This document shows positions 2,269 to 13,140 of a stretch of DNA of 21,576 bases, in pieces. The stretch's first letter is position 1. Each line of letters opens with the position of its first letter. Below the pieces are notes generated by a model. It saw nothing but the letters and a program-made list of their open reading frames with translations. It made no database searches and was not told the origin of the DNA. The DNA comes from a virus. Both the position numbers and the translations under genes were made by a program. Location of the stretch: positions 1-21,576 of the IMG/VR virus record IMGVR_UViG_3300033143_003819. One strand, written 5' to 3'.

Positions 2269-2308
2269 AACAGTATCTTGTCCTTTATTGGGCAGGATAC
2301 TGTTTTTT
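2269..2308 (+). terminator. Rho-independent terminator
   Basis: AACAGTATCTTGTCC (2269-2283) pairs with GGGCAGGATACTGTT (2290-2304), 15 bp with two G-U pairs, loop TTTATT, followed by a run of T ending at 2308. It separates the 1.85-2.25 kb unit from the origin/initiator operon. Confidence 0.85.
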
Positions 2309-2327: not shown

Positions 2328-2345
2328 GGTCTCATTTTTGAGACT
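2328..2345. promoter_or_regulatory. Palindromic iteron copy, possible operator
   Basis: GGTCTCATTTTTGAGACT, which is the reverse complement of the 18-bp palindrome found inside the initiator gene, with one mismatch at the outer base. The match with the copy at 3264 extends to 23 bp if the flanking GAAAAT is included. It lies between the terminator and the gene at 2402, just after an AT-rich TATACAAT that might be a -10. A site here would let the initiator repress its own operon. Confidence 0.65.
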
Positions 2346-2401: not shown

Positions 2402-3031
2402 ATGAAGAAAAAATCTTGGAAAGACAAAACATATGATAAAAGTGTAAACAAAGGAAAGATATGGGTAGATCAAGCTGTTCCACTAATAGATAAGTTTTTA
2501 GGAATAAAATGCAGCCCATATGCTTCGTGGGCAAGTGTAAAAAAATATGGAACTTGCAGAGAAAGAATAGAAATAAAACTGGACAAACCATGTGATATTA
2601 GAGATGATGGGCGTGGGGTTATGTCTATTGAGGTGAAGAAAAGAACAAACCCAATGGAAGATGATGAAAAGAGTCTAAAATGGATTCCCGCAGGAATAAC
2701 AAGAGTTAATAGAACAATTCTATATGCTCAAGGAAGACCCGCAGAGAAAGGAAGACCCGGAATACTTGCTATTTTTGAGAAAAAAATACTTTTGGAGTTA
2801 TGGGAAGACTGTGTTTACAAAGAAATGCTTTTTCCCCATCCAAATGCAGGAGAAGGACTGCCCAGAATCAGAACATATCATATTCCATTACCAGATGTTC
2901 CAGAACTTGCCATATATTTTAAGAGATGGAGAAAAGAAAAAAAATCCAGAATTTTGACAAGAAAGAATGCCATACTTATTCCAAAGAAACAAAAACTAAT
3001 CAGAAAAGAAACTCAGGGCTATATATTATAA
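2402..3031 (+). CDS. Unknown protein, weak resemblance to PD-(D/E)XK nucleases
   Basis: A 209-residue basic protein; ATG 2402 has GGAGAGG at 2391-2397. The middle contains 'DIRDDGRGVMSIEVKKRTN' (about 66-84): an Asp, a short strand and then ExK, the pattern of PD-(D/E)XK nuclease cores, followed by the strand 'GILAIFEKKILLELW'. This is suggestive, not diagnostic. The C-terminus is very basic (KRWRKEKKSR, then KNAILIPKKQKLIRKE). It ends one base before the ATG of the O-like initiator, so the two genes are probably translationally coupled and controlled together from the palindrome at 2328. A partner for initiation (loader-like) cannot be excluded. Confidence 0.65.
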   Translation: MKKKSWKDKTYDKSVNKGKIWVDQAVPLIDKFLGIKCSPYASWASVKKYGTCRERIEIKLDKPCDIRDDGRGVMSIEVKKRTNPMEDDEKSLKWIPAGITRVNRTILYAQGRPAEKGRPGILAIFEKKILLELWEDCVYKEMLFPHPNAGEGLPRIRTYHIPLPDVPELAIYFKRWRKEKKSRILTRKNAILIPKKQKLIRKETQGYIL

Positions 3032-3032
3032 A

Positions 3033-4331
3033 ATGGTCGACAACGAAACAATAATACTTCCTTTCGATATTTGGGATGCTCTCACATATATTGGACTGCC
3101 AAAAAGCGAAATGTCCTGCTTAATGCTCATCATAAAAAAGACAGTTGGATGGGATAAAAAGCGGGATGAAATTGCCATTTCTCAGTTCATAAAAGCAACA
3201 AGACTTCCCAAATCCTCAATATTTAGGGCATTGAACTCACTCAAGAAAAAGAGGATTATTTTCAGTCTCAAAAATGAGACTCGAATCAATATAACTTATG
3301 GATTTAACAGCCGGATACAGGACTGGAAATCAGTCTCAAAAATGAGACTCGACATCAAAAATGAGACTGACCATCAATCAACTAATGAAAATAACAAGAA
3401 AAACAAGATAAAGCTCGTTTTGAAGAAACCCCGGGATGGAGTCTCAAAAATGAGACTACACAGTAATACTAGTATAACATCCAGTAATAAAGATACTGGC
3501 GTATCTTTATTGAGTACTCCTATCGGAGCACAAAAGAGAATGAGTGACTCACTCAGGAATAACAAAACTGATTTGATTCCAAAAAAGAAAAGTCTCACAT
3601 TGACTAAAAAGAATAAACGAATATTTGATTATTACTACCAAGAATATTATAAGAAACAGCCATCATTGAATACTCAAGCTGCAAAGAAAGCCAAACATTG
3701 CTTAAACAAACTTGCAAGGGGAATTTTGTTTAACAGAGATACTTCCCTAAAAAAATATCACAATAGAAAATTCTCAGAAAAGGAAATCAGATTTGCTATT
3801 GACAGACATATTACAAAAGCGGTAGATGATTCATATAAACCAGCAAACAAAGGATTCATGTTTGTTTATCTTGCCGATTTCTTCTATAATAAATTTTCAA
3901 GGATTAAAAGCTTATTCCTTGACTCACTCGAAAACGAACCAGTCCCAGTAGTTCCTGTTCTTGTTGATCGCAATCCCGAATTGTCCAAAGCTCTATTTGA
4001 TGTATACAACGAAGAAGCTCGAAATGGTTTATCCATGACACCATTTGACAAGCTGACACATAAAGATAAGAATTGTTTTACTGCCGGAGCATTCAAACTG
4101 AATAAGTTTCTCAAGATGAACGATAATAGGATTATCAAGCCAATGTTGAACACACACCAAAAGAAAGCAATGTTGTTATGGAAAACCATAATGATGTGTG
4201 CAAATAACGATTTAAAGAAAGTTCATGCATTCTGGTTTAAAGCTGATTTTGTATTCGAGAGATTGCCAAATTATATGACTGATAGAGGATTTTTGACATC
4301 GAACGCAAAGCGGAGTGCGTTTGTAGTGTGA
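3033..4331 (+). CDS. Lambda O-like replication initiation protein
   Basis: The N-terminal 90 residues match the phage replication protein O domain. 'IILPFDIWDALTYIGLPKSEMSCLMLIIKKTVGWDKK' is the usual opening, followed by the winged-helix segment 'ISQFIKATRLPKSSIFRALNSLKKKRII' that binds iterons. Residues about 95-200 are Lys/Ser/Asn-rich linker; its DNA carries four copies of an 18-bp palindrome. The C-terminal 230 residues are mixed helical with 'AMLLWKTIMM' and 'FWFKADFVFERLPNYM'; in lambda O the C-terminal part contacts the helicase loader, and by analogy this part may contact the DnaB-like helicase encoded next. At 432 residues it is longer than lambda O (about 300). The start at 3033 lacks a good ribosome site and follows the previous stop by one base, so coupling is likely. 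The linker contains KIKLVLKKP and KKKSLTLTKK, the basic motif seen in other replisome proteins here. Confidence 0.8.
   Translation: MVDNETIILPFDIWDALTYIGLPKSEMSCLMLIIKKTVGWDKKRDEIAISQFIKATRLPKSSIFRALNSLKKKRIIFSLKNETRINITYGFNSRIQDWKSVSKMRLDIKNETDHQSTNENNKKNKIKLVLKKPRDGVSKMRLHSNTSITSSNKDTGVSLLSTPIGAQKRMSDSLRNNKTDLIPKKKSLTLTKKNKRIFDYYYQEYYKKQPSLNTQAAKKAKHCLNKLARGILFNRDTSLKKYHNRKFSEKEIRFAIDRHITKAVDDSYKPANKGFMFVYLADFFYNKFSRIKSLFLDSLENEPVPVVPVLVDRNPELSKALFDVYNEEARNGLSMTPFDKLTHKDKNCFTAGAFKLNKFLKMNDNRIIKPMLNTHQKKAMLLWKTIMMCANNDLKKVHAFWFKADFVFERLPNYMTDRGFLTSNAKRSAFVV
3264..3281. repeat. Iteron 1, 18-bp palindrome
   Basis: AGTCTCAAAAATGAGACT, perfect copy; 7-bp arms AGTCTCA/TGAGACT around AAAA. Read in the gene frame as SLKNET. 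Confidence 0.85.
3332..3349. repeat. Iteron 2, 18-bp palindrome
   Basis: Identical 18-mer, 68 bp after iteron 1, but in a different reading frame of the same gene (encodes VSKMRL with flanks). Identity across two frames shows the DNA is conserved, not the peptide. Confidence 0.85.
3351..3368. repeat. Iteron 3, partial copy
   Basis: The last 14 of 18 bases match (TCAAAAATGAGACT); the left arm is degenerate (GACA instead of AGTC). It begins two bases after iteron 2 ends, so the two centres are 19 bp apart, roughly two helical turns, on the same face. Confidence 0.7.
3440..3457. repeat. Iteron 4, 18-bp palindrome
   Basis: Identical 18-mer, in the same frame as iteron 2 (VSKMRL). A further half-site AGTCTCA lies at 3591-3597. 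Confidence 0.85.
3486..3511. repeat. AT-rich inverted repeat next to the iterons
   Basis: AATAAAGATA (3486-3495) and TATCTTTATT (3502-3511), a perfect 10-bp inverted repeat around CTGGCG. It follows an AT-rich stretch (3462-3490) on the downstream side of the iteron cluster, where lambda has its melting region. Confidence 0.6.
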
Positions 4332-4446: not shown

Positions 4447-4713
4447 ATGCCAGCACACAGAAAAGAAATATTAATACACGAAGGCAATGATACATCAAGG
4501 TTTGTTTACTGTCCTGAATGTTCTTGTAGAATGAGAATATTTCTTGGTCCCAAAGCAAGAACATGGTTTAGATGTAAAGACCCAAAATGTGAGTTTGAAT
4601 GTACTACGGAGTTTGCACTTGGATATTGGAAAGGGGTAAAAGACGAAAGAACAGCAATTGTAGTGAAAGGGTGGGACATAGATGCCAAGACTGATAAAAA
4701 GAAAAAAGACTGA
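4447..4713 (+). CDS. Small zinc-ribbon protein
   Basis: 88 residues; ribosome site AAGAGGAGGG at 4434-4443 before ATG 4447. The protein has 'YCPECSCRMRIFLG' (Cys at about 22, 25 and 27) and 'FRCKDPKCEFEC' (Cys at about 43, 48 and 52), a two-knuckle zinc ribbon. The remainder is a short strand/helix tail ending in KKKKD. Ribbons of this kind bind nucleic acid or bridge proteins; no enzyme motif is present. It overlaps the helicase gene by 32 nt, so the two are likely co-translated. Other Cys-rich modules occur in this window in the helicase and SSB. About 115 bp upstream (4332-4446) hold no gene and no clear signal. Confidence 0.7.
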   Translation: MPAHRKEILIHEGNDTSRFVYCPECSCRMRIFLGPKARTWFRCKDPKCEFECTTEFALGYWKGVKDERTAIVVKGWDIDAKTDKKKKD

Positions 4714-6172
4714 TGTTAATGTTGAAAAGCGGATAATCACCGGAATGATTGTATCAAAAGAGTTTATGCAAAGCATATATCCCTTGATTGATTTTGCTTA
4801 TTTCAAAAGTTCATTCACAAGGAGAGTAGCTTATTGGGTTTATGACTTCTACGAGGCATACGAAGAAGTGCCGTTTGATGACATCCAAAGCATATTCAAC
4901 GCAGAAGAGCCAAAGCTAAAGGAAGAAGAAGCAAAACTCATATCAAAACTGTTGACTCGAATATCAAAGCGATATGCACAGGACAAAGGAATAAATTTAC
5001 CATATCTATTAGACCAGACAGAACTTTATTTCAAGACAAGAGAGCTTGAAATAACATCTGGTAATTTAAAAGTCCTGTTGGAAAAAGGGGATATCAAAGG
5101 AGCAGAAGACCAGCTATCTTCCTTTAGGAAGATTCAAAAGCTTACCTCCGAATGGATAGACCCTTTTGATAATAATGAAATAGACGAAACATTTAACCAA
5201 ATGGATGAAGAGTTTCTTGTTCTTCCGGGGAAGCTCGGAGAGTTCATAGGAAATTTGGAACGAGATTGGTTGATAGGCATATCAGGAGCATTCAAAAAAG
5301 GAAAGACATGGTTTCTGCAAGAGTTTGAACTTATGGGAATTTTGTGTAATTTAAAAGTCGCTCACTTCTCCCTTGAAATGAATAAACAACAAACAAAAGA
5401 GCGATTGTATAGAAGAATGACTGGTGGATATGAAGAAGGGGAAAGGCTCGTCTTTCCTTGTTTTGACTGTGTAAAAAATCAAGATGATTCCTGCGAGTTA
5501 GACCAAAGAGTGTGCGATGAACCAAGTCCAGAAAAGTTTAATGAAGAAGACACTTATTTGCCATGTACTGCTTGTAGAAATGATGGAACAGACAACTACG
5601 AAACAGCGTCATGGGCAGAGATGTTGGATGCACCGTCGTTTGATGTTAGCTCAGTTGGAAGAACACTCGAAGCGTGGCAGAAAAGCTATAATGACTTGCT
5701 GCGAATTAAAATCTATCCGAGATTTTCTGCCAATATTTCAGACGTAAAAAGAGATTTAGATTTACTGGAACAACTGGAAGATTTTGTCCCAGATATAATC
5801 CTAATTGACTATGCAGATATTCTAAAACCAGAAGAGGACAATTCTGTTGGTATCGACAAGGAAGACAGAACATGGATTGCTCTTTCTCAATTGGCAGCGG
5901 AACGTCATGCCCTTGTCATTGCTCCGACACAAGTAACAAAAAGTGGTCAGGATGTTTCCCGACTAAAAGTAGAACATACTGCAAAATGGGTAGGAAAGCT
6001 TGCACATGTGGACGGAATGATGACTTTAAATCAAACAGATGAACAAAAGGAATCTGGCATTATGGGAGTGGGGTGGATGTTACACAGACACAAAAAATTT
6101 GATGCAAATGCGACTGTAACGGTATTACAAAAATTAATGGTAGGACAAGCAAACTTAGACAGCGAAATATGA
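4682..6172 (+). CDS. DnaB-like replicative helicase with Cys-rich insertion
   Basis: 496 residues. Residues about 1-150 are a helical DnaB-type N-terminal domain. The RecA-like motor follows: Walker A GAFKKGKT (202-209), 'AHFSLEMN', the hallmark FSLEM of DnaB-family helicases, Walker B 'IILIDYAD' (372-379), 'IALSQLAAERHALVIAPTQVTKSG' (motif H3) and a C-terminal 'LHRHKKF' that could carry the arginine finger. Between FSLEMN and Walker B, about residues 255-310, is an insertion with six cysteines (260, 263, 271, 278, 295, 298) including two CxxC pairs, probably zinc binding; usual DnaB proteins lack it. It unwinds the fork and would be loaded by the O-like initiator. ATG 4682 has a weak site (AAAGGGTGG) and overlaps the preceding gene; ATG 4745 is an alternative start. 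Confidence 0.88.
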   Translation: MPRLIKRKKTDVNVEKRIITGMIVSKEFMQSIYPLIDFAYFKSSFTRRVAYWVYDFYEAYEEVPFDDIQSIFNAEEPKLKEEEAKLISKLLTRISKRYAQDKGINLPYLLDQTELYFKTRELEITSGNLKVLLEKGDIKGAEDQLSSFRKIQKLTSEWIDPFDNNEIDETFNQMDEEFLVLPGKLGEFIGNLERDWLIGISGAFKKGKTWFLQEFELMGILCNLKVAHFSLEMNKQQTKERLYRRMTGGYEEGERLVFPCFDCVKNQDDSCELDQRVCDEPSPEKFNEEDTYLPCTACRNDGTDNYETASWAEMLDAPSFDVSSVGRTLEAWQKSYNDLLRIKIYPRFSANISDVKRDLDLLEQLEDFVPDIILIDYADILKPEEDNSVGIDKEDRTWIALSQLAAERHALVIAPTQVTKSGQDVSRLKVEHTAKWVGKLAHVDGMMTLNQTDEQKESGIMGVGWMLHRHKKFDANATVTVLQKLMVGQANLDSEI

Positions 6173-10406: not shown

Positions 10407-10606
10407 TGGAAGAATACACCGTTGTATATATATCAGAATTAACAAAGAAAGTTAACAAAAATAGAGAAGATGTATATAAAGCTATGAAATGGGGAAAAGC
10501 ACCAAAACTTAGTGATGGAGATGTTAGAATGGTTGTTGAAACAATGGATGGGTACCACTCTATGGATGGATACCACTCTATGAAGGAAATAAATGACAAA
10601 AAATGA
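10406..10606 (+). CDS. Small protein with a duplicated DGYHSM motif
   Basis: 66 residues; start in the TAATG overlap of the clamp stop. Residues about 8-50 look like a small helix-turn-helix ('VYISELTKKVNKNREDVYKAMKWGKAPKLSDGDVRMVVETM'), which could be a DNA-binding or toxin/antitoxin-like module, uncertain. It then has a direct duplication MDGYHS-MDGYHS coming from an 18-bp tandem repeat. It overlaps the polymerase gene by 14 nt. No family assignment. Confidence 0.55.
   Translation: MEEYTVVYISELTKKVNKNREDVYKAMKWGKAPKLSDGDVRMVVETMDGYHSMDGYHSMKEINDKK
10544..10579 (+). repeat. 18-bp tandem duplication
   Basis: ATGGATGGGTACCACTCT (10544-10561) and ATGGATGGATACCACTCT (10562-10579), one mismatch, in frame. 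Recent slippage-type duplication in the small gene at 10406. Confidence 0.9.
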
Positions 10607-11984
10607 CCAATATGATTTCTTTGAAGAGGATGGGATAGACGAAGCAGACTTTGAAATCACTGAGTCGGCGGATGCTGAGTGTTATAAGTGTGGTCTCTAT
10701 CGTAAGGTAAACTCTCTTATCGTAGCAGAGGCAGCAGGAAGTAATGAAGACAAAGCAGGAAAACAACTTGTAGGCAAAGCAGGACAAAAGAAAAGAGCAG
10801 AGCTTAAAAAGAATGGGCTGGATTTAGATATAGATTTTTGGAAAACGAACGCTTTGGCTTGTCGTCCGTTTGAAAAGACTGAACATGGAACAAAGAACAG
10901 ACCACCAACCAAAGCAGAGTTATCATACTGCCGTCCTCTTGTAACTAAAGCAATTAAAAAATATAATCCTAAGTTTATTTGGTTGCTTGGTGGAAAAGCG
11001 ATTCAATCCTTTTTCATGGGGAAGTTCAAGATTGTGACAGCAAACAGATGGAGAGGGCTTTGCATCCCTGACAGAGAAACGGGCGCATACATTTTACCAA
11101 TGTATCATCCGTCTTATATTATTCGGAGCAGCAAGGATAAAAATCTTGTGTCCTGTTGGATGCGTGATGTAAAGAACGCTGCGGAGGCATTGACATTAGA
11201 GCCGTTTACATTTCAGGATGAGAATAAACAAGTTACCTGCTTGTACGATTTTGATTCTGTTTGTGATGTACTGGATGACATTCTTGAAAAAGAACCAGAA
11301 CATTTAGCATTCGACTATGAAGCAACTGGGCTCAAACCATACGCTCCCGGACACAAAATATCCACAATCTCTGTTTGCTGTGGGGACGAAGCCTTCTCTT
11401 TTCCTTTCGACTACAAAGACCATTGGTCTCCTCTGATGCTCAAACAGATACGAAAGAGATGGCGAAAGATACTACAAAATCCTGACATCGGCAAGATAGC
11501 TCATAACATCAAGTTTGAGGATGTATGGTCATCAACATTATTGAACGTTAAAATCAAAGGATGGTCTTGGGATACGATGCTTGCTGCACACATTCTTGAT
11601 AATCGTTCGGCGTATACTTCCCTGAACTTCCAAACTTACATTAATTTTGGTGTCTTTCCTTATGATGCAAAAGTAAAAAGATTTCTAAAGTCCCAAAACT
11701 CAAATGCTTTTAATAAAATTGAACAAGCACCACTTGAAGACATACTTCATTACAATGGTTTAGATTCCTTGTTTTGTTACAAGTTGTTTAAAGAAAAACA
11801 GTTACCACAATTTGAAGAAGACTATATGATTGGTCCCACAGATAAAAAGAAGTTGATTGATGCATATTATTTACTACATGATGGGACGTTAGCTCTATCT
11901 AAAGTTGAGCAAAATGGCATATGTGTCAATGAAGAGTATTACGTATCTGAACGAAGGAAAAGAAGCCAAACTCTTCCGAGATAA
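10593..11984 (+). CDS. Uracil-DNA glycosylase (family 4)-3'-5' exonuclease part of a PolA-type polymerase (frame broken)
   Basis: 463 residues before TAA 11982-11984. Residues about 28-205 are a family-4 UDG: Cys 30 and 33 (CYKC), 'VAEAAGSNEDKAGKQLVGKAG' (43-63), Cys 90 in 'NALACRP', Cys 113, and 'HPSYIIR' (172-178). All four iron-sulphur cysteines and the HPS motif are present. Residues about 230-405 are a DnaQ-like proofreading exonuclease with D241-Y-E243, 'AHNIKFED' and 'YNGLD' (387-391). It then enters the polymerase domain at 'GICVNEEYYVSE' but ends 11 codons later, while the rest continues in the +1 frame. A fused UDG-exo-pol arrangement is known from SPO1-type phage polymerases. UDG activity could remove uracil from templates. 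The start overlaps the previous gene; there is no strong ribosome site. Confidence 0.85.
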   Translation: MTKNDQYDFFEEDGIDEADFEITESADAECYKCGLYRKVNSLIVAEAAGSNEDKAGKQLVGKAGQKKRAELKKNGLDLDIDFWKTNALACRPFEKTEHGTKNRPPTKAELSYCRPLVTKAIKKYNPKFIWLLGGKAIQSFFMGKFKIVTANRWRGLCIPDRETGAYILPMYHPSYIIRSSKDKNLVSCWMRDVKNAAEALTLEPFTFQDENKQVTCLYDFDSVCDVLDDILEKEPEHLAFDYEATGLKPYAPGHKISTISVCCGDEAFSFPFDYKDHWSPLMLKQIRKRWRKILQNPDIGKIAHNIKFEDVWSSTLLNVKIKGWSWDTMLAAHILDNRSAYTSLNFQTYINFGVFPYDAKVKRFLKSQNSNAFNKIEQAPLEDILHYNGLDSLFCYKLFKEKQLPQFEEDYMIGPTDKKKLIDAYYLLHDGTLALSKVEQNGICVNEEYYVSERRKRSQTLPR

Positions 11985-13140
11985 GACTGGGAGAACGTTG
12001 AGCAACACTTCGGGAAAGGATTTAGGACAATTGTTCTACGATATCCTAAAACTACCAAAGATATTAACAAGCAAAGGAAGTTACTCGACAGATAAAGATG
12101 CAATCGCCAAGATAAATTCACCATTCGCAGAGAAATTATTGCTCTTCAGAAAATTAGAAAAAGTTAGAGGTACATATGTAGCTCAGTTTAAGCGAGAGAC
12201 ATACGATGGCAAAATGCACCCCATGTCAAACTTAAATATTCCTGTGACATATAGACCAAGCACAGACAGACCAAACTTTGCAAACATTCCGAAGAGAGAT
12301 GAAGAAGCAAAAAAATATACTCGTTCAGGCATTATCCCATCAAAAGGATGGAAGATACTTGAGAGTGACTTTAGTGGCATAGAAGTTGCCACAAGTACTT
12401 GTTACAATAGGGACAGGAATCTAATAAAATATGTAACTGATATAAAATCAGACATGCACAGGGATTCTGCTGCTGACTTGTGGAAGCTGAAACAAAAGGA
12501 AGTCACAAAAAAGATTCGGTTCTACGCTAAAAATCAATGGGTCTTTCCTGAGTTCTACGGAGATTGGTATGGCTCATGTGCAAGGAACTTATGGGACAAC
12601 TGCATCAAACTAAAATTAGATTCGGATATAACATTAGGGCAGCACTTGAGAATGAAGGGTATCAATAATTACAATGCATTTGTAGAGCATTGCAAGGAAG
12701 TAGAAAGAGTATTTTGGGACGAGAGATTCCCCAACTATAAAAAATGGAAAGAAAAAATAAACAAACTGTATCGAAAGCAAGGATTCATAGAGACTTATCT
12801 TGGCTTTGTCTTTAGAGGATACTTGGCAAAGAATGATTGTACTAACTATCAAGCACAAGGAACTGCCTTTCATATATTACTATGGACATTAATAGAACTG
12901 CTAAAAGAAATGGAAAAGCGAAAACTCAAGACAAAAATAATTGGTCAAATATATGACTCGATTGTGAACGACTTGTATCCACCTGAAGAGGAAGAGATAA
13001 TTTATCTTATCAATGATATTGGCACTGTTCGGACACGAAAAGAATTTGATTGGATTATTGTGCCACTCAATATTGACCATGAAATAACAGAAATAGATGG
13101 AACATGGTATGACAAAACAGATTGGAAAAAAGTCGCCTAA
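11929..13140 (+). CDS. DNA polymerase A-family polymerase domain (continuation after frameshift)
   Basis: The polymerase domain continues in the +1 frame, so either the gene is frameshifted or the product is made separately from ATG 11929 or 11914; no ribosome site supports that. 'GKDLGQLFYDIL' (thumb start), 'NIPVTYRPSTDRPNFANIPKRD', motif A 'ESDFSGIEVATS' (DFS at 12367), motif B region 'RFYAKNQWVFPEFYGDWYG', and motif C 'IGQIYDSIVND' (12945-12977) are all present. Motif C has YDS where bacterial Pol I has HDE; the metal-binding Asp is kept. The C-terminus reaches a normal end. Thus both halves look intact except at the junction. Together with the upstream ORF this is one phage replicative polymerase of about 850 residues. 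Catalysis: template-directed DNA synthesis with the clamp. Confidence 0.85.
   Translation: MKSITYLNEGKEAKLFRDKTGRTLSNTSGKDLGQLFYDILKLPKILTSKGSYSTDKDAIAKINSPFAEKLLLFRKLEKVRGTYVAQFKRETYDGKMHPMSNLNIPVTYRPSTDRPNFANIPKRDEEAKKYTRSGIIPSKGWKILESDFSGIEVATSTCYNRDRNLIKYVTDIKSDMHRDSAADLWKLKQKEVTKKIRFYAKNQWVFPEFYGDWYGSCARNLWDNCIKLKLDSDITLGQHLRMKGINNYNAFVEHCKEVERVFWDERFPNYKKWKEKINKLYRKQGFIETYLGFVFRGYLAKNDCTNYQAQGTAFHILLWTLIELLKEMEKRKLKTKIIGQIYDSIVNDLYPPEEEEIIYLINDIGTVRTRKEFDWIIVPLNIDHEITEIDGTWYDKTDWKKVA

Follow-up and report, generated by a model that had tools for sequence, protein, structure and literature searches.

Where does replication of this phage genome begin? The question is raised by the virus of IMG/VR record IMGVR_UViG_3300033143_003819, of which positions 1 to 21,576 (hereafter the window, 21,576 nucleotides) were analysed, and by one gene within it that contains the same 18-mer in two reading frames. 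A preliminary description had proposed a lambda-type intragenic origin with a palindromic iteron. We find this supported as anatomy, by the Phage_rep_O domain of the encoded protein, by the iterons, which lie where those of lambda lie and like them are read in different phases, and by the recurrence of in-gene palindromes among homologues. What was computed directly is the set of repeats with their phases, the domain and the recurrence across the family; from this anatomy we infer, with a probability of about 0.85, that positions 3264–3457 are the replication origin of the phage, lying lambda-like inside its initiator gene. The arrangement is known from lambda; its own site sequence and an unusual upstream copy of the site set this phage apart. 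The analysis gives a testable origin to an uncultivated phage with genes for much of its own replisome.

Initiator protein and neighbouring genes

3033..4331, plus strand: initiator gene, 432 amino acids, with a Phage_rep_O winged helix (residues 11–91), a disordered linker (about 104–190) and a helical C-terminal region
3063..3305, plus strand: winged-helix DNA-binding domain, residues 11–91, with the recognition helix at residues 60–72 (KSSIFRALNSLKK)
4682..6172, plus strand: DnaB-like replicative helicase (PHROG 19, 7.6e-35), with relatives in loci L041–L043

The O-like N-terminal domain that had been assigned to the protein was borne out by Pfam PF04492, Phage_rep_O (residues 3–89, 1.2e-12, 48.6 bits against a cut-off of 28.7), and by an O-like PHROG (3.9e-12). 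In the AlphaFold model, built on 32 aligned sequences, residues 11–91 form a winged helix predicted with confidence (pLDDT about 86–97, elements in the order H-H-E-H-H-E-E). Confidence is low at linker residues 104–190, which are probably disordered, and in the C-terminal part. Matches of the fold in the PDB were to generic winged-helix proteins only, none of them informative. The initiator gene is followed on its 3' side by a small Cys-rich ORF and then by the DnaB-like helicase, the likely partner of the initiator; no P-type helicase loader was identified after the initiator gene.

Searches by single protein and by alignment, run for the initiator and for its nearest palindrome-bearing homologue, returned no close relatives, and a nucleotide search of phage records gave short, insignificant matches only. 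The C-terminal part of the initiator is retained in two metagenomic relatives found via the helicase (28% identity, 1e-17), while the N-terminal domain of L044 is an unrelated one, HTH_36. The repeated GTCTC palindrome described below was not found in the loci of the helicase-found relatives (search of L041–L043). These relatives support swapping of the N-terminal domain, not the GTCTC site, and they fit a modular protein whose N-terminal domain would set origin specificity and whose C-terminal part would presumably deal with the helicase.

A Cys-rich insert in the helicase of the window (CFDCVKNQ...CTACR) is also conserved in L041–L043. In L042, a tandem 23-bp repeat (GACAAGTCATCCCACGTATCGAT, L042:2524-2569) lies after the N-terminal domain of the initiator gene, and these are perhaps the iterons of L042 itself. 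In the window, a DNA polymerase (PHROG 17) is distributed over two ORFs, 10593–11984 and 11905–13140, which overlap and differ in frame; the gene may truly be split or be read with a frameshift, or an indel may have arisen in sequencing.

Repeats within the initiator gene

3264..3281, plus strand: iteron 1, exact 18-mer, phase 0, peptide SLKNET (residues 78–83, in the wing of the winged helix)
3332..3349, plus strand: iteron 2, exact 18-mer, phase 2, peptide VSKMRL, at the start of the linker
3351..3368, plus strand: partial iteron, spacer and right half-site intact, left arm altered, phase 0, peptide IKNET
3440..3457, plus strand: iteron 3, exact 18-mer, phase 2, peptide VSKMRL, in the linker

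A repeat search of the window recovered AGTCTCAAAAATGAGACT exactly at 3264, 3332 and 3440 and as a partial copy at 3351, just as the preliminary description had reported, and its reading of this DNA as SLKNET or IKNET on the one hand and VSKMRL on the other was also correct; counted from 3033, where the ORF starts, the phases at 3264, 3332, 3351 and 3440 are 0, 2, 0 and 2. The exact copies share the palindrome GTCTC-N6-GAGAC. Four matches to the 18-mer with at most three mismatches compare with 0.04 expected from dinucleotide shuffles of the window, and the 16-bp core, for which 4e-5 occurrences are expected by chance, is present in the window four times. Centre spacings of the copies (68, 19 and 89 bp) are irregular and without helical phasing. 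Folded as RNA, every copy gives a stable hairpin of between -8.8 and -9.9 kcal/mol (z from -3.5 to -3.9).

The argument that identical DNA in different frames is DNA under selection was followed up by synonymous recoding. At least three GTCTC-N6-GAGAC sites were obtained in 0 of 20,000 synonymous recodings of residues 71–150 with phage codon usage, which points to selection on the DNA itself, and the codon-shuffle p for the in-gene palindromes of the window was 0.01. The use of several frames, however, is the norm of the family and nothing special. Apart from iteron 1, the in-gene copies are coded at or within the linker, and since sites that lie mostly in a disordered linker are in a part of the protein that tolerates almost any sequence, the DNA can be kept constant in whichever frame it falls. 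If in-gene iterons whose half-site changes with the recognition helix are indeed common in the family, housing DNA sites in disordered linkers would be a design of general use.

3486-3496/3501-3511, no strand assigned: perfect 11-bp inverted repeat, AATAAAGATAC-TGGC-GTATCTTTATT, hairpin z -3.9

The adjacent AT-rich 10-bp inverted repeat of the preliminary description proved to be a perfect pair, in fact of 11 bp, but its flank is weakly AT-rich, at 69–72% against a background of 63–65%. Within the initiator gene, AT content is highest in 40-mers around 3612 and 3877, which are at least some 150 bp from the sites. It is possible that the repeat at 3486–3511 is a melting or structural element that takes part in the origin. 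GC skew, which had been put forward as a check, makes no clear switch at 3.3–3.5 kb, and a second origin may lie elsewhere, the contig being a fragment.

Comparison with lambda and other known systems

The iterons of lambda are inverted repeats of 18–19 bp that are bound by O and lie beside a 39-bp AT-rich region (PMC6022878, PMC7466680). Four of them are annotated in gene O of the lambda record, in phases 0, 2, 2 and 1 and with the peptides IPQNEG, KSPKTRD, TSLKLGD and YPSKQGD; as all three phases are used, the same DNA in two frames is something that already holds for lambda. The locus studied here shares with lambda a Phage_rep_O initiator and palindromic, A-centred iterons that lie in the gene after the winged helix and are read in several phases. 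The iterons themselves differ (ATCCCTCAAAACGAGGGAA in lambda, AGTCTCAAAAATGAGACT here), with half-sites of the TCCCTC type in lambda and GTCTC here. Spacing in lambda is regular, at about 20–24 bp, whereas here it is irregular and wide; a strong AT-rich block stands beside the lambda iterons, in contrast to the weakly AT-rich flank noted above; a P-type loader serves lambda where a DnaB-like helicase is encoded here; and the extra exact upstream site has no counterpart in lambda. Uneven or wide spacing was also seen in several homologues, and regular spacing was regarded as a property of lambda itself and not taken as family-defining.

Lambda, P22 and phage L have initiators that apparently bind iterons of different sequence, each set inside the initiator's own coding region (PMC8022706). 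In P22 and phage L the iterons lie within the gene of gp18, and gp12 is a DnaB-type helicase (PMC8022706), so that the initiator-then-helicase layout is the one seen here; the iteron sequences differ, and the likeness drawn here is one of layout. The O proteins of Shiga phages likewise have an intragenic origin, in which dimeric O binds six iterons that are inverted repeats (PMC7466680), but they are close relatives of lambda with lambda-type half-sites and six sites.

Survey of Phage_rep_O homologues

Homologues were collected by BLAST or HMM, nearly all without regard to repeats, and 52 non-redundant sequences of at least 33 bits were retained. In each, the part that begins where the winged helix ends was examined for a repeated palindromic half-site, with codon-order shuffles as the control (p <= 0.02). 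In 33 of the 52 the winged helix was followed by a palindromic half-site in two or more copies, the other 19 gave no such in-gene palindrome at that threshold, and more than one reading phase was used by 23 of all 34 positives; three members of the count did not come from the blind collection, namely the window, lambda and L037, whose gene is that of L023. By this comparison of sequences, palindromic iterons inside the gene would seem to be a common feature of Phage_rep_O initiators. Half-sites are specific to subfamilies (GTAAA-N5, GTCGG-N5, GTTCA-N5, GTGCA-N5, TTACC-N7, CGGGA-N7, ATCCC-N8/9, GTCTC-N6/7 and others) and vary together with the recognition helix across them, and the loop of the palindrome varies both within and between genes.

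One contig (L014:6945-7036 and L036:1322-2104) has an O-type gene without in-gene palindromes and, elsewhere, three intergenic GTCTCTANNTAGAGAC-like sites, possibly a non-intragenic origin.

A fourth copy upstream of the gene pair

2269..2304, plus strand: terminator-like hairpin with a T tail, just upstream of the fourth copy
2329..2344, minus strand: fourth exact 16-bp core (GTCTCAAAAATGAGAC), non-coding, some 58 nt before the ATG at 2402; may serve as an operator or as a distal iteron
2402..3031, plus strand: ORF of 209 amino acids, without a family match in Pfam or PHROG, directly 5' of the initiator gene

The fourth exact core, which the preliminary description did not contain, was found on the minus strand at 2329–2344, and it has 23 bp (ATTTTCAGTCTCAAAAATGAGAC) in common with the copy at 3264. 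The ORF at 2402–3031 and the initiator gene are probably one operon. A sigma-70 promoter scan at the upstream copy gave nothing convincing, with no consensus promoter over the core. When the locus DNA of the 33 other positive homologues was examined, none repeated its own site exactly outside the gene, which makes the upstream copy at 2329 unusual. Its identity with the iterons suggests a candidate operator for autoregulation, or else a distal origin site. Initiators of iteron plasmids also repress their own operon through an iteron-type site, as is proposed here, whereas that of lambda does not. In autoregulated iteron plasmid initiators of the mini-F RepE kind, the operator at the initiator operon has sequence in common with the iterons; here an exact core lies upstream of the operon at 2329–2344, with no consensus promoter detected over it, and homology to plasmid Rep initiators was not found, the Pfam search having reached Phage_rep_O only.

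Alternative explanations

The sites could be mainly regulatory, with the protein controlling its own operon through the in-gene sites and the one at 2329 while replication starts elsewhere. The fourth exact copy, non-coding and set between a terminator-like hairpin and the operon, speaks for this, as do the nearest PDB matches of the fold, which are generic winged-helix regulators. We nevertheless consider it unlikely in view of the Phage_rep_O domain, the DnaB-like helicase downstream and the match with the mapped origin of lambda; moreover, since no other positive homologue locus has an exact outside copy, an upstream site is not the normal purpose of the in-gene sites. Another reading has the palindromes act as hairpins in mRNA rather than in DNA. 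Every copy is able to fold, but this is true of any such palindrome, and the half-site of each subfamily tracks a DNA-recognition helix, the loop varies and one copy lies outside the gene, so that we rejected this reading as very improbable.

Exact copies in different frames, one of them outside the gene, might also be left by a small mobile or selfish repeat that had inserted several times, yet behind the winged helix homologues have other palindromes at the same place, and the window holds no more than four copies of the 16-mer; this too was rejected, as scarcely credible. That VSKMRL appears twice in the same frame could mean that a peptide repeat is what is selected and that the DNA repeat is its consequence. 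The two phases, however, give unrelated peptides, three sites were never reached in the synonymous recodings, and lambda and L023 use all three phases; we rejected this explanation with almost no hesitation.

Proposed mechanism

For the preferred reading, an origin inside the initiator gene, we envisage that initiator dimers would bind the GTCTC-N6-GAGAC palindromes via the N-terminal winged helix, with the recognition helix (residues 60–72) reading the GTCTC half-sites. Nearby DNA would then be remodelled or melted by the initiator, and its C-terminal region would recruit the DnaB-like helicase of the phage (4682–6172) to the nearby melted segment. Only tentatively, and at less than even odds, do we extend this to an initiator that fires the in-gene origin and also represses its own operon via the identical 2329 site, with an O-type half-site that is perhaps predictable from the recognition helix. 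The more interesting residue of the analysis is the upstream copy together with the apparent pairing of half-site and recognition helix across the family.

Half-sites, recognition helices and GTCTC-type initiators

Candidate pairings are [ST]-x-[FY]-R with GTCTC, SRPTVVKCL with GTAAA and GYGKDAVISGA with GTCGG. In most GTCTC-type initiators the recognition helix has an aromatic residue followed by Arg, as in SSIFRAL of the window. L207 and L210 (both ATLFR), from a sample chosen by PHROG profile, have GTCTC-N5 sites and fit out of sample, although they are close relatives and the repeat of L210 is not significant alone (p 0.25). L165 has GTCTC-N7 sites with Lys. L235 has TVYR yet TCGGA sites. 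On these comparisons the link of [ST]-x-[FY]-R to GTCTC is no more than suggestive. If the pairing is true, the origins of uncultivated phages would be readable from sequence, and if in-gene palindromes are as common as the survey suggests, origins could be located in many unannotated phage genomes by a repeated palindrome behind a winged helix.

Viral contigs were also scanned in reverse, for two GTCTC-N6-GAGAC palindromes within 30 nt, proteins being ignored. This gave 29 loci, against 6 for a control with the half-site reversed, and 4 of those 6 were hexapeptide-repeat genes in one constant phase; with a gap of 31–60 nt there were 25 loci, some common to the first scan. About a dozen distinct loci fell in ORFs that open with a helix-turn-helix and have the sites behind it, in many cases read in mixed phases, and replication PHROGs were matched by 7 of 10 initiator-like ORFs (six replication-initiation families and one DnaD-like loader). 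The repeat by itself recovered unrelated initiators; the sites of L023 use all three phases, and the exact 16-mer of the window is present in L032, L052 and, as its complement, L005. These GTCTC-type initiators (L005, L023, L032, L052, L057, L207 and others) resemble that of the window in having a helix-turn-helix and then GTCTC palindromes, often in mixed phases, but most of them have no Pfam Phage_rep_O match and a different C-terminal part.

L032:6434-7534 combines an N-terminal helix-turn-helix and in-gene GTCTC sites, the exact 16-mer of the window among them, with a C-terminal DnaA_N domain (Pfam 2.5e-7), and has perhaps borrowed the helicase-recruiting domain of DnaA. Clusters of GTCTCACTGGTGAGAC-like palindromes were seen in intergenic positions beside small genes (L015:8702-8812, L017:1623-1734, L030:4932-5042, L031:2649-2782, L055:2433-2512 and L058:410-481); they are perhaps a different use of the same palindrome, as operators or partition sites. 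GTCTC palindromes (GTCTCTCATGAGAGAC, GTCTCACGCGTGAGAC and similar) also occur in the high-GC records L016, L018, L019, L021, L029 and L061, where some of the frames beside them resemble shadows of ParA-like genes.
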